From the NCBI GenBank assembly GCA_017443585.1, contig JAFSYV010000189.1, forward strand, positions 1 through 42,856: a stretch of DNA of 42,856 nucleotides. The letters are read 5' to 3'. A model generated the notes under the pieces. It was not told where the DNA came from. It did not search any database and was given only the letters and a program-made list of their open reading frames with translations. Shown here one piece after another: positions 20,603 through 26,235 of the stretch. A program made the position numbers and the translations under genes. Numbering within the stretch: position 1 is the first letter of the stretch; each line of letters begins with the position of its first letter. Origin of the DNA: Lentisphaeria bacterium. Lineage in GTDB: Bacteria; Verrucomicrobiota; Lentisphaeria; Victivallales; Victivallaceae.

Positions 20603-21325
20603 TTATCGGGTGTTTTGATGTCTTTCCCCGGCGGCGCGGATGAAGGCGGAAAAGAGGGCCTTGCGCTGGGGAATGTCGTCGGAACATTCCGGATGCCACT
20701 GGACGCCCAGGCGGAAGACTTCACCCGGCTGTTCGATGGCTTCGACCACTTCGCCGTCCAAGGCGGCGATCCGCCAGTTTTTCCCGGGCGCGTCGGGCCG
20801 GACCGCCTGATGGTGGCAGGAGTTGACCCGCACCGTGCCCGCCCCGAGGATCTTGGCAAGGAGGGTGCCGGGCAGGATCTCCGCCGTGTGATAGGGACTT
20901 TTTTCCGCGTCCCGGTGGCGGGAAACGAGGGGGCCCAGATCCTGAATGAGTTTCCCGCCGGAAACCGCGCAGAGGAGCTGGCACCCCAGACAGACCCCGA
21001 AGACGGGCAGGGGGCGGGCCAGGGCAAGCTCGGCCGCGAGGACCAGACTTTCCTGCACTTCGGGCTTCAGGATCCGGGTCACTTCGGGGACGGGCGTTTC
21101 GCCGTAGAAGGAGGGATGGATGTCGGGCCCGCCGATGAAGAGCACCCCGTCCAGAATTTCCATGTAGGCTTCGAGTTCCTCTTTCCCGGCGAAGGGGGGC
21201 AGCTGGACGGGCAATCCGCCGCAGTCGTAAACGGCCCGGAAATACTCGTCCGGGATCTCGTAGACGTTTTTGGTTTTGACGACTTCGTTGACCCGTCCCG
21301 TGACGCCGATGAGGGGGAGTTTCAT
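20603..21325 (-). CDS. Gamma-glutamyl-gamma-aminobutyrate hydrolase-like amidotransferase (peptidase C26), second copy
   Basis: A 240-residue class I amidotransferase-like hydrolase. GVCLGCQ carries nucleophile Cys112, and VQWHPE the catalytic His and Glu; IGGPDIHPSFYGE and CHHQAVRPDA match the copy at 3.3 kb, of which it is a clear paralogue. It is the first gene of a two-gene operon with the DUF4838 protein and has a near-consensus promoter. The repeated pairing of C26 and DUF4838 genes suggests that the DUF4838 pathway yields a gamma-glutamyl or amide-containing product, which is speculation. Confidence 0.92.
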   Translation of the reverse strand: MKLPLIGVTGRVNEVVKTKNVYEIPDEYFRAVYDCGGLPVQLPPFAGKEELEAYMEILDGVLFIGGPDIHPSFYGETPVPEVTRILKPEVQESLVLAAELALARPLPVFGVCLGCQLLCAVSGGKLIQDLGPLVSRHRDAEKSPYHTAEILPGTLLAKILGAGTVRVNSCHHQAVRPDAPGKNWRIAALDGEVVEAIEQPGEVFRLGVQWHPECSDDIPQRKALFSAFIRAAGERHQNTR

Positions 21326-21604: not shown

Positions 21605-21633
21605 TTGAATTTCCGGCTTCGTCATGGTATATT
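21605..21633 (+). promoter_or_regulatory. Promoter of the transporter/permease-kinase operon
   Basis: TTGAAT (21605-21610), 17 bp, TATATT (21628-21633), directly after the repeat tail and 43 bp before the EamA ATG. Confidence 0.7.
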
Positions 21634-21676: not shown

Positions 21677-22624
21677 ATGAACGGAAAAGTCTTGCTGGGG
21701 CTGCTGCTGGGGTTTCTGGCTACGGCCTCGTGGGGGAGTTTTTACATCGCGGGCCGGTGGCTCTACGGCGAAGAGGGGAACACCATCAACTCCTGGCTGT
21801 TCAACTTCCTGCGGTTTTCCATGGCCGCCGTCGCCCTGCTGCCGCTGCTGGTCCCGAAAAAGACGCGCGAACTCATCGTCCGGGCCTTCCGCGAGGACCT
21901 TCGGGAGTTTCTCATCATCGCCGCGACGGGGATCGTCATCGAAAGCAGTCTGGTCTTCTGCTCGTTGAAATTCACCACTGCGGCCCGCAGTTCCCTCATG
22001 GCCAACTGTTCTCCCATCGCCACGGTGATCCTCGCGTGGGTGATGCTCCGTCAGAAAAGTTCCCTCGGGGCGATCCTGGGCATGTTGATCGGCTTCGCCG
22101 GGATCGTGCTGGCGGCCGTCGCCGAGGGCGGGGACATCTACGCCGACACCGGCTGGCGGACCCTCGTCGGCGACGCCATGTCGCTGGCTTCCGGCATTTT
22201 TTGGGCCTATTTCACAGTCAAGGGGGCGAAAGTTTCGCAAAAATACGGCGGCCCGGTGTGCATGGCGGTGTGCTTCGTGCTGGGGGCGGCGATGATGGTC
22301 CCGGTGCTTTTCTTCACCGTGCGGCCCGCCGACTTCTCGGCCCTGACGCCCCGGATGTGGGGAGGAGTGCTCTACACGGGCGTCGTCACGCTCGCTCTCG
22401 CCAATGCCTGCTGGTACGGAGCCTTGCGCTACCTGAAACCGGGTGTGCTGGGCGCTTTCGGATATCTTTCGGCGGCCATCACCTTCACTTTGTCGGCGCT
22501 GGTCCTCAAGGAGCGTTTTACGCCGCCTTTCATCGTCGCCATCGGGCTGATCCTCGGGGGAATGGCGCTGATGATGCGCATGACGCCGCAAGCCGAAAAG
22601 CGGGAAGAAGAAAAAGAACTCTGA
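21677..22624 (+). CDS. EamA/DMT-superfamily transporter
   Basis: A 315-residue inner-membrane protein with about ten hydrophobic segments arranged as two EamA halves (LLGLLLGFLATASWGSFYIA at the start; GVLYTGVVTLALANACWYGA in the second half). Members export or import amino acids, nucleosides or sugars; the substrate is unknown. I start at ATG 21677 with AAGGAA upstream; a longer frame from a TTG at 21605 overlaps the promoter. It is the first gene of a probable three-gene operon with the permease-kinase (22-bp gap) and the Ser/Thr kinase. Confidence 0.88.
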   Translation: MNGKVLLGLLLGFLATASWGSFYIAGRWLYGEEGNTINSWLFNFLRFSMAAVALLPLLVPKKTRELIVRAFREDLREFLIIAATGIVIESSLVFCSLKFTTAARSSLMANCSPIATVILAWVMLRQKSSLGAILGMLIGFAGIVLAAVAEGGDIYADTGWRTLVGDAMSLASGIFWAYFTVKGAKVSQKYGGPVCMAVCFVLGAAMMVPVLFFTVRPADFSALTPRMWGGVLYTGVVTLALANACWYGALRYLKPGVLGAFGYLSAAITFTLSALVLKERFTPPFIVAIGLILGGMALMMRMTPQAEKREEEKEL

Positions 22625-22646
22625 GCGGAAACGAGGAGAATCACTT

Positions 22647-25013
22647 ATGACGGAACAGAATCGGACGAACTCGCAGGAAAAATATCTCACCCCTCTCGAC
22701 GTCTGGGCAATGGCCTTCGGCTGCATGGTCGGCTGGGGGGCCTTCGTCATGCCCGGCTCCACCTTCCTGCCGGTGGCGGGCCCGGCGGGCACCATCATTT
22801 CCATGGCCATCGGACTTGTCGTCATTCTGGTCATCGGCTCCTGCATCTCCTTTCTGATGACGCGCTCGTCGGGGACCGGCGGGATCTACGTCTACACCAG
22901 GGAGGCTCTCGGGCGGGACCACGCCTTCCTCTGCTCCTGGTTCCTCTGCCTTTCGTACCTGACCATCGTGTTCCTGAACGGGACGGCCCTGTTTCTCGTC
23001 ATCCGGGCGATGCTGGGAGACGCGGCGCACCGGGGCTACAGCTACGCCATTGCGGGGAGGCCCGTCTACGCCTTCGAGGTCCTTCTTTCCGTGGCCGCCC
23101 TGGCCGGGATCGGATTCCTCTTCCTCGTGGCGAAAAAACTTCTGAAACGCCTCGCCACCGTGCTCGCCGTGATCCTTCTCGCCGGGATAGTCGTCACGAC
23201 GGCCGCCTGCCTGCCCCACGCCGACCCGCACGACATTTTCACGACCTTCGGCTATCAGGACGTGAACCGGGGATTCGCCATCTTCAGTCTGGTCATCCTC
23301 GCCCCGTGGGCCTTCGTGGGCTTCGAGGTGGTCACCTTCGCCGCATCGCATTTCACCTTCCCCGCCCCGAAGACGAAAAGGGTCATTACCACCTCCATCA
23401 TCATCGCCGCGCTTGCGTATACCTTCATGACGCTCGTCAGCATCTCCATCATCCCGGAGGGATACTCTTCCTGGCAGGCCTACATCGCCGACCTCGGCAA
23501 GCTGAACGGGATCGTTTCCATCCCGAGTTTTTATGCCGCGAAAAAGGCCATGGGCACGACGGGGCTCGTCGTTGTCGTCGTCACCGCGATGGCGGCCATC
23601 CTGACGGGGATCATCGGGGCCTACCGGGCCACCGTGAGTCTGCTTTCCACCATGGCCGGGGACAAGATCCTTTCGGAGCGGTTCCTGAAGCCGAAACATT
23701 GCATCCTTTTCATCATGATCCTTTCGGTCCTCATCTCGTTTCTGGGGCGGAACTCGCTCGTCTGGTTCATCGACCTGACCGCCTTCGGCGCCATCGTGGC
23801 CTACGGATACACTTCCGCCGCGGCGTACAAGATCGCCCAAACGAAGAACAACTACCGGATCATGGCGGCGGGTCTCCTGGGGGTCGTCAGCTCCGTGCTC
23901 TTCGGGATCGCCCAGATCGTTCCCTGTCTGGCGGCGGTGGAGGCCATGTGCAGCGAGGCGTTCCTGCTCCTCTCGCTCTGGTGTCTCTTGGGATTCGTCT
24001 TCTACTGGCGCATGGTCCGGCGGAGCTCACTTGTCGAATACAGCAGCATGGCCACTTCGGGACTGGTGCTGTTCACGCTCCTTCTCTACACCGCCTTGAT
24101 GTGGCTCGGGAAACTGCTCATTGCCCAGAAGGATCTTGAAACTCTGCAGCGGTCGCTGGTCACGGGGGGGATCGTTCTGATGGTGATCATCTTCGTCGGT
24201 CTGGTCGTCATGCTGTATATCCAGAACCGGGTGAGCAAGATGCACGAAGCGGCCCGGCGGGAAAGGATCCGCCTCGCGGAGGGAAGCCTCGCCCGGAGCC
24301 AGTTCCTCCTGAACATGTCCCACGACATCCGCCCGCCGATGAACGCCGTCGTCAACTACGCGAAACTCGCCCTCAAGGAACCGGACAGCATGCTCCGGGA
24401 CTACCTGCGGAAGATCGAAAAGTCCGGTCGGGAATTGAAAACGATCATCGACGGCATCTTCGATGCGACCCGGAGCGGGAACGACGAATTCGACCTGGAA
24501 CTCGACCCCACGGACCTGAGTTTGAGTTTCGAGGAACTCAGCGATCTGTTTGCCGAAGAGATAAAGCGGAAACGGGTGAACTTTTCCGTCCACGTCTCCC
24601 AGGTCCGCAACCGGTATGCGTGGTGCGATGAGAAGGACTTCAAACAGATCCTTTCGGACATCGTTTCGCGCGCCTGCCGACGTACGCCCGAGGGCGGCGC
24701 CGTTTCCGCCTCGATCTGCGAAACGGGCTCCGGGGAAAACGGATACAGCACCTACGAACTGCGCTTTCAGAACAGCGGTCCGGGCCTTTCACGGGAAGAG
24801 GCCGCCAAACTCTTCGCCGCCGACGCTCCCGCCGAAGGCGCGGACCCCGGTCTCGCCGGGACGAAGATCATCATCGACCGCATGGGCGGCACTGCGGAGG
24901 TGTTCTCGTCGCCGGGCAACGGCACCGAAATGGTCCTGCGCTTCAAATTCCGGCTCGCCCGCGAAAAGGACATGAAGAAGAAGATCGCCGTCGAAAAGGC
25001 CGCCGGCAAGTGA
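22647..25013 (+). CDS. APC-superfamily permease fused to a C-terminal histidine-kinase-like module
   Basis: A 788-residue protein. Residues ~15-530 are an amino-acid/polyamine/organocation-type permease with about 12-14 membrane helices (GCMVGWGAFVMPGSTFLPVA opens helix 1). A charged coiled linker (~530-555) leads to a HisKA-like H-box MSHDIRPPMNAV with His559. A HATPase_c-like domain follows, but its N-box reads SDIVSRACRRT (Asp671 and Arg675 where Asn is expected), and the G2 box DPGLAGTK lacks the usual GLGL. The G1 box QNSGPG is acceptable. The module may therefore bind no ATP and act as a sensor or pseudokinase. GAGGAG precedes the ATG. It is followed after 31 bp by a Ser/Thr kinase. No response regulator is present. 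Confidence 0.85.
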   Translation: MTEQNRTNSQEKYLTPLDVWAMAFGCMVGWGAFVMPGSTFLPVAGPAGTIISMAIGLVVILVIGSCISFLMTRSSGTGGIYVYTREALGRDHAFLCSWFLCLSYLTIVFLNGTALFLVIRAMLGDAAHRGYSYAIAGRPVYAFEVLLSVAALAGIGFLFLVAKKLLKRLATVLAVILLAGIVVTTAACLPHADPHDIFTTFGYQDVNRGFAIFSLVILAPWAFVGFEVVTFAASHFTFPAPKTKRVITTSIIIAALAYTFMTLVSISIIPEGYSSWQAYIADLGKLNGIVSIPSFYAAKKAMGTTGLVVVVVTAMAAILTGIIGAYRATVSLLSTMAGDKILSERFLKPKHCILFIMILSVLISFLGRNSLVWFIDLTAFGAIVAYGYTSAAAYKIAQTKNNYRIMAAGLLGVVSSVLFGIAQIVPCLAAVEAMCSEAFLLLSLWCLLGFVFYWRMVRRSSLVEYSSMATSGLVLFTLLLYTALMWLGKLLIAQKDLETLQRSLVTGGIVLMVIIFVGLVVMLYIQNRVSKMHEAARRERIRLAEGSLARSQFLLNMSHDIRPPMNAVVNYAKLALKEPDSMLRDYLRKIEKSGRELKTIIDGIFDATRSGNDEFDLELDPTDLSLSFEELSDLFAEEIKRKRVNFSVHVSQVRNRYAWCDEKDFKQILSDIVSRACRRTPEGGAVSASICETGSGENGYSTYELRFQNSGPGLSREEAAKLFAADAPAEGADPGLAGTKIIIDRMGGTAEVFSSPGNGTEMVLRFKFRLAREKDMKKKIAVEKAAGK

Positions 25014-25044
25014 TTTTACCCCTGATCCGGGTCACTTTCTGCAA

Positions 25045-26235
25045 ATGAGCGAAAAATCTCAAAATTATCCGACCGAAGAGGTGAAGTTCGGCGACGAGTC
25101 CGAAGCCGATCTCAACCGGACCGTCATTGTCCCCGGTCTTGCCTCCGGCGCGGCGGACAACACGACGAATATTTCGGAAAACGGCGGCATCCCCGACCGG
25201 AAACGGAAGAAGGAGATCGAAGACCTCGTCGGCGGCGTCGACATCAACCCCTATATCAGTCTGGATCTGGACGTTTCCCCCGAACTGGAGTCCTCGCTCG
25301 AGACCGTCGGGGCGAGATACGCCATGCTGACGGAATTCGCCGAAGGGGGAACGGCGAAGATTTCCATCGCCCGCGACCGGAATCTGCGCCGGCTCGTCGC
25401 CGTCAAGTCGCTGCGGATGGATGCGGAAAACATCAAGGAACTTCTGGCCTCCTTCGTGACCGAGGCCAAAGTGACCGCCCAGCTGGATCATCCCGGCATC
25501 ATCCCCATCTACGGACTGGCCCGCGACGAGCAGAACGGGATCCATCTGGTCATGAAGCTGGTCAACGGCAGGACGCTGCGCGAATACTTGAAGAACATCA
25601 CGCTGAATTACCGCATCCGGGGCGTCGACGCCTTCGACGAGACCGTCGAACTCCGGAAGCGACTGGAGATATTCCTGCGCGTCTGCGACACCCTCGTCTA
25701 CGCCCACCACCGCAACGTGATCCACCGGGACCTCAAGCCCGAAAACATCATGATCGGGAAATACATGGAAGTCTTCGTGATGGATTGGGGGCTGGCGAAA
25801 ATCCTTTCCGAAGGAGAGGACAATTTCCCCGCGAACCGCAAGATTTCGGGAACGCTCCGCTATTTTCCCCCGGAGGTGCTCCGCGGCGACCCGCTGGACC
25901 TGCGGTCGGATATCTTCACCCTCGGGCTGATCCTCCAGGAGGTCGTGACGCTGCGGTACGCCTTCGACGGCCACGACGAAAAGGAGATCGTCGACCGCGT
26001 CCGCAAGGGGCAGATCGAGCCCGTGGTGCATCTTTTCGGCCGGAAGATCGACGGAAAACTCCGCGCCATCATCCACAAGGCGACGGCGTACGATCTGAAG
26101 GAGCGCTACCAGACCGTGGAAGACCTCGCGGAGGATCTCCGCCGCTACATGGGCGGGCTTTCCATTTCCGTCGGGGACGGCAATTTCGTGGACAAATTCC
26201 TGCGTTTCGTTTTCGAGCGCATCCTCAAGTTCTGA
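25045..26235 (+). CDS. Hanks-type serine/threonine protein kinase
   Basis: A 396-residue soluble kinase without a membrane helix. After an ~85-residue acidic N-terminal segment, the kinase domain shows the glycine loop (FAEGGTAKISIARD), VAVK with Lys121, catalytic HRDLKPEN (His227-Asp229), DWG in place of DFG (Asp247), and a SGTLRYFPPE activation segment where PPE replaces APE. All catalytic residues are present, so it is probably active. PVC bacteria commonly carry this Pkn2-like type with DWG. Its ribosome-binding site is weak. It sits 31 bp after the permease-kinase fusion in one operon, suggesting a shared signalling pathway. Confidence 0.93.
   Translation: MSEKSQNYPTEEVKFGDESEADLNRTVIVPGLASGAADNTTNISENGGIPDRKRKKEIEDLVGGVDINPYISLDLDVSPELESSLETVGARYAMLTEFAEGGTAKISIARDRNLRRLVAVKSLRMDAENIKELLASFVTEAKVTAQLDHPGIIPIYGLARDEQNGIHLVMKLVNGRTLREYLKNITLNYRIRGVDAFDETVELRKRLEIFLRVCDTLVYAHHRNVIHRDLKPENIMIGKYMEVFVMDWGLAKILSEGEDNFPANRKISGTLRYFPPEVLRGDPLDLRSDIFTLGLILQEVVTLRYAFDGHDEKEIVDRVRKGQIEPVVHLFGRKIDGKLRAIIHKATAYDLKERYQTVEDLAEDLRRYMGGLSISVGDGNFVDKFLRFVFERILKF

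Follow-up and report, generated by a model that had tools for sequence, protein, structure and literature searches.

An APC-type permease fused to a degenerate histidine-kinase module and paired with a Hanks-type Ser/Thr kinase in a Lentisphaeria bacterium

Genes at the locus and the family of the fusion protein

The DNA analysed here (the window) is a stretch of 42,856 nucleotides from a Lentisphaeria bacterium (assembly GCA_017443585.1, contig JAFSYV010000189.1), in which three genes follow each other on the forward strand: an EamA (DMT) transporter gene (21677-22624; two EamA repeats in Pfam, 3.9e-37), a gene encoding a fusion of an APC permease and a histidine kinase (HK) module (22647-25013; starting 22 bp after EamA), and a gene for a Hanks-type Ser/Thr kinase (STK; 25045-26235, 396 aa; starting 31 bp after the fusion gene). 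Open reading frames and Pfam domains thereby bore out the layout given by a first-pass annotation, including the permease joined in a single 788-aa frame to a HisKA/HATPase module and the Hanks kinase 31 bp further on. A candidate sigma-70-like promoter, recognised by consensus match only (TTGAAT-17-TATATT, with TG before the -10; 21605-21633, forward strand), lies upstream of EamA. Divergent from EamA is a gene resembling Peptidase_C26/glutamine amidotransferase (20603-21325, reverse strand), which is preceded by a near-consensus promoter-like site (21395-21367, reverse strand; 11/12).

Three Pfam domains are found in the fusion protein: AA_permease_2 at residues 14-442 (1.8e-16; 60.6 bits versus a cut-off of 27), HisKA at residues 549-611 (1e-11; DHp region, 24291-24479) and HATPase_c at residues 661-768 (1.5e-10; CA region, 24627-24950). 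The family match, the AlphaFold model and the identity with relatives place the permease domain and further transmembrane (TM) helices at residues 1 to about 529 (22647-24234). Pfam detected neither SSS nor STAC, and the protein is thus not CbrA-like. Structure prediction, proposed in the annotation as a check, yielded a model with a mean pLDDT of 79 and a pTM of 0.64 (32 sequences), in which an APC fold is followed by a continuous helix running from the last TM segment into the first DHp helix (residues 497-577; 24135-24377) and by a CA fold whose lid (725-734) is disordered. On the basis of this model the helix is likely to be signal-transmitting. Foldseek matched the permease part to AdiC, GkApcT/CAT, BasC and ApcT (TM-score by target 0.72-0.78). 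The TM1 motif of the fusion reads G-W-G, with a Trp (W30; 22734-22736) that is invariant in 32 aligned relatives. APC transporters usually carry a small residue at this position, and W30 may mean that the ligand is unusual or that the protein is a sensor without transport activity.

A search for the same architecture recovered about 45 in-frame relatives (46-68% identity) in Victivallales and in numerous genomes from rumen and gut that carry Bacillota or Actinomycetota labels; all genomes compared are drafts, and some labels of rumen metagenome-assembled genomes may be wrong. Dozens of genomes, independent of one another, carry the fusion in frame, and it therefore does not stem from a frameshift or assembly join near residue 530, one of the two outcomes that the annotation had named as overturning its proposal. 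Orthologues typically span 925-968 aa (open frames), and their extra length consists of a C-terminal receiver domain (REC; by Pfam for relative G032, by alignment for the family). The family is therefore one of APC-type hybrid histidine kinases, and its norm, as read from the alignments, is a protein with C-terminal REC and intact motifs. The literature searched contained no earlier description of this APC-hybrid-HK transceptor family, documented here in rumen and gut bacteria, and only SLC5, Amt and S-component cases were encountered. The permease domain of the window protein is 65-75% identical to those of Victivallales relatives, and is conserved as much as these are among themselves.

Besides the orthologues, distant paralogues with approximately 32% identity were found, among them a canonical APC-hybrid HK in the window's own genome (G000:C76; L071 5378-8029), the REC of which is cut by the contig end; G032 also carries such a paralogue. 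In the gene tree, the Victivallales APC-HKs except that of G307 form one clade nested among Bacillota-labelled sequences, a topology that suggests transfer between phyla in gut or rumen.

Conserved pairing with a Ser/Thr kinase

The three genes had been taken as one operon in the first-pass annotation. EamA, 22 bp from the fusion gene, is probably co-transcribed with it, and is not a conserved part of the fusion-STK system. It lies beside the fusion in the window genome only: EamA relatives occur in 18 genomes of the order, away from the fusion, none adjoins the fusion in the other genomes compared, and none was detected in G032 at 1e-60. A simple three-gene operon including EamA was therefore rejected, and the conserved unit is the pair of fusion gene and STK.

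At each of the six Victivallales-clade loci (window, G032, G102, L058, L021 and L024) the APC-HK gene is followed by the STK, so that the adjacency on which the annotation had staked its proposal does recur in relatives, with one STK apparently broken; it is absent beside the APC-HK in the Bacillota relatives. The exceptional STK, beside an intact APC-hybrid HK in L024 (10955-12162), is spread over three reading frames, which points to a broken gene or possibly to an assembly error. L024 is the mirror image of the window, with an intact HK and a broken STK versus a dead HK and an intact STK. Since G032, L058 and L021 combine an intact HK with the STK, the two genes were already paired before HK catalysis was lost; the STK is thus not a replacement that arose with that loss, and two outputs are probable for the intact sister loci.

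The remaining neighbours of the fusion gene are those of a phosphorelay. An Hpt gene follows the STK in G032, L021 and L024, and a partner hybrid HK is present in G032 and L024. Bacillota loci contain a hybrid HK beside the gene and often Hpt and REC-GGDEF-EAL genes (21 frames match, two of which were checked with Pfam), for instance at L044 2869-4563 and L023 5658-7370. These REC-GGDEF-EAL genes suggest c-di-GMP turnover as the ancestral output. G307, a more distant class member (43%), has a hybrid HK and Hpt and no STK. Neither Hpt nor a partner hybrid HK occurs beside the fusion gene in the window or G102, and the window as a whole contains no REC or Hpt homologue and no second HK, in agreement with the annotated lack of a response regulator. 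With the STK still present in both, the phosphorelay parts were thus lost together while the STK was kept. On this comparison of loci, the missing response regulator reflects a phosphorelay that was lost here and that relatives retain (own REC, partner hybrid HK and Hpt), and is not the mark of an orphan HK.

Substitution of the lost REC by a detached REC gene was considered and rejected, as the two REC genes near the G102 fusion are not close to the REC of G032 (32-33% identity). One of them, on a fragment convergent with the STK (L109 1-456), resembles the REC of the APC-hybrid-HK paralogues, and two APC-HK genes may therefore be neighbours in G102.

The window STK is a Hanks-type kinase by its Pkinase fold (2.4e-38, 132.5 bits) and by its catalytic Lys, HRD and DFG-type motifs, which are conserved among the operon STKs as AVK, HRDLKPEN and DWG. 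The five intact operon STKs form one clade (100/99) of 394-425 aa frames, which stop where the sister STK-TM-dCache kinases have their juxtamembrane position. These sisters and distant STKs of the order mostly have frames of 740-900 aa with a TM segment right after that position, and both long STKs that were checked with Pfam (n=2) contain a dCache domain. The shortening is derived, because the outgroups are also long. Judged by these comparisons, the window STK is a truncated STK-TM-dCache sensor kinase that has lost its sensor and membrane anchor.

Degeneration and constraint of the histidine-kinase module

The window and G102 proteins were compared with 36 relatives in a residue census of the alignment. 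The first N-box Asn, present in 35 of the 36 relatives, is Asp in both proteins (D671 in the window). The second, present in all 36, is Arg in the window (R675) and His in G102, and the equally invariant Asp of the G1 box is Asn in both (N709 in the window). The position four residues after the phospho-acceptor His is Pro in the window versus Thr in 36/36 relatives, and the ATP lid/F-box is shortened. The H-box is preserved in the window with its phospho-acceptor His559, which is Asn in G102 (SNDIRT); the ATP-binding boxes N, G1, F and G2 are not preserved in the window. HisKA is still matched by Pfam in both proteins; HATPase_c scores 42 bits in the window versus 93 in the intact relative G032, and is undetected in G102 at E 0.01. 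Finally, the 35 relatives whose sequence covers that site all have the REC Asp, and REC is missing in the window and G102, which stop at the same place: the C-terminal tail of the window protein (24951-25013) ends where relatives have a linker and REC. G102 (784 aa, 68% overall identity), which belongs to a different genus and family within the order, is the sole other degenerate member. The HisKA/HATPase-like assignment of the annotation holds at the level of Pfam, with the loss of catalytic residues having been overlooked; from these replacements the HK module of the window protein is predicted to be catalytically dead.

On permease columns, the window and G102 are sisters (98/97), with G032 next (100/98), and the alternatives window+G032 and G102+G032 are rejected (AU p about 0.01). 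The parsimonious reading of the shared form would be a single REC loss with decay in the window/G102 ancestor. The STK tree weakly prefers window+G032, and window+G102 (AU p 0.066) is not independently recovered there. Branch lengths revealed accelerated evolution of the HK region, with 0.34 versus 0.08 for the permease on the window/G102 stem and 0.29 versus 0.13 on the window tip; HK-region tips are about twofold longer in both proteins, whereas most other branches lack such excess (L073: 0.18 versus 0.21). A model with separate branch lengths for HK and permease regions has a much better fit than a proportional model (2dlnL about 94, 19 df).

Despite this acceleration, the region evolves under constraint. 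Between the window and G102, dN/dS is 0.36 in the HK region (bootstrap 0.25-0.53) and 0.29 in the permease, both reflecting evolution after the inferred loss, whereas the intact pair G032-L058 gives 0.13 for its HK region; dS is moderately high, which makes these values approximate. No stop codons were seen in the HK region of either protein, while neutral simulation at the observed divergence predicts about 3.7-5.3 stops per lineage (p(none) 0.005-0.018). Neutral decay of the HK region is disfavoured by these results, which derive from the only two sequences carrying the dead form. Because the predicted dead region evolves under constraint and retains its modelled fold while the catalytic residues are gone, the window copy is most readily classified, on this comparative evidence, as a retained pseudo-histidine-kinase and not as a functional HK.

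A proposed rewiring of the receptor to Ser/Thr kinase output and its known counterparts

The best model for the locus, to which we assign a probability of about 0.55, is an APC-type receptor whose dead HK module controls an STK without a sensor of its own. The annotation had suggested a transceptor feeding eukaryote-type phosphosignalling; the APC-HK fusion and its conserved STK partner are in keeping with that idea, with an HK module that is predicted to be dead. We infer that the STK receives the transceptor signal, a proposal strengthened by the loss of its own TM-dCache sensor, and the data suggest that receptor output was rewired from His-Asp to Ser/Thr phosphate signalling. That the HK of the transceptor became a module without catalysis that docks and switches the sensorless STK, with Ser/Thr phosphorylation replacing His-Asp output, is a more tentative proposition, held at somewhat under even odds.

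According to this model, the ancestor would have been an APC-type hybrid HK with a permease sensor, DHp/CA and REC, acting with a second hybrid HK and Hpt as in relatives. In the window/G102 ancestor REC would have been deleted and the ATP site would have decayed, leaving a non-catalytic HK-fold module under purifying selection, while the fusion gene kept its neighbouring STK, which had itself lost its membrane anchor and dCache sensor. The permease domain would bind, and perhaps carry, an amino acid or related solute, and its conformational change would be transmitted along the continuous helix to the pseudo-HK dimer. This dimer would provide the membrane docking site for the soluble STK and switch its activity, giving an output by Ser/Thr phosphorylation in place of a His-Asp relay.

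The strongest rival, which we consider unlikely, is that the pseudo-HK modulates an intact HK in the manner of DivL or RetS, its DHp heterodimerising or being phosphorylated, while the STK would provide an output that is separate or runs in parallel. Among non-transporter structures, Foldseek gave DivL as the best match, and DivL and RetS are among the PDB sequence matches, as is ethylene response sensor 1 of the rival plant-like reading; moreover, the retained HisKA match in both proteins and the intact paralogues in the window genome and in G032 accord with such a role, and the window protein could still take phosphate on His559 from another kinase. However, the partner hybrid HK, REC and Hpt are gone from the locus while the STK was kept, the paralogue sits on another contig, and G102 lacks the His. 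Quite unlikely is a fusion that now serves mainly as a transporter, or as a receptor being lost, with an HK tail that decays or is kept for folding or dimerisation and with an independent STK: the raised substitution rate, degenerate catalytic residues and REC deletion would fit, but a dN/dS of 0.36 after the split, the lack of stops in two lineages and the conserved STK adjacency do not. It is very improbable that the module has an unusual but real catalysis, through atypical ATP binding or as a Ser kinase like PDK/BCKDK of the GHKL fold; the fold in the AlphaFold model and His559 are kept, but replacements affect the G1 Asp and the two N-box Asn, the ATP lid is altered, and HATPase_c has faded from G102. 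The chance of a chimeric contig or frameshift is negligible, since despite the 371 contigs and 7.45% estimated contamination of the assembly, the fusion recurs independently in frame and G102 likewise lacks REC and has the STK beside the fusion.

Discussion of how two-component receptors came to use Ser/Thr kinases for their output usually draws on plants, and a bacterial series can be set out here, leading from Bacillota loci with a phosphorelay only (often with REC-GGDEF-EAL), via Victivallales loci with phosphorelay and STK (one STK broken), to two loci with the STK only. Such natural intermediates make receptor rewiring directly testable.

Several known systems share parts of this architecture. 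CbrA and CrbS (SLC5-STAC-PAS-HK; PMC13022988, PMC7096432, PMC5715377) likewise place a solute carrier N-terminal to an HK module and are proposed nutrient transceptors; their carrier is SLC5 instead of APC/AA_permease_2, whereas Pfam finds no STAC or PAS in the window protein, which has a predicted dead HK and an STK neighbour. The ammonium sensor kinase Ks-Amt5 (PMC5764959) is also a sensor in which a transporter domain is fused to an HK, but it differs in its Amt fold and active HK. DivL, a repurposed HK without kinase activity (PMC4211667), shares the reuse of a non-catalytic HK fold for signalling, but reads a response regulator, acts on CckA and has neither a transporter domain nor an STK. 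In ethylene receptors, the HK domain binds the Ser/Thr kinase CTR1 and HK catalysis is dispensable (PMC3933193); control of a Ser/Thr kinase by the HK domain of a membrane receptor is what the model proposes here, from adjacency, although the plant system is eukaryotic, has an ethylene-binding TM domain with GAF and a Raf-like kinase, and is homologous only at the HK fold. If the docking and switching reading is true, the locus would be a bacterial counterpart of ethylene receptor-CTR1, in which a receptor and a kinase replace one sensor kinase and of which two-output intermediates exist in sister lineages. The STK-TM-dCache sensor kinases of the same order (L112, L113) are close to the locus through their kinase domain, which is sister to that of the window STK; the latter stops before the TM and dCache segments.
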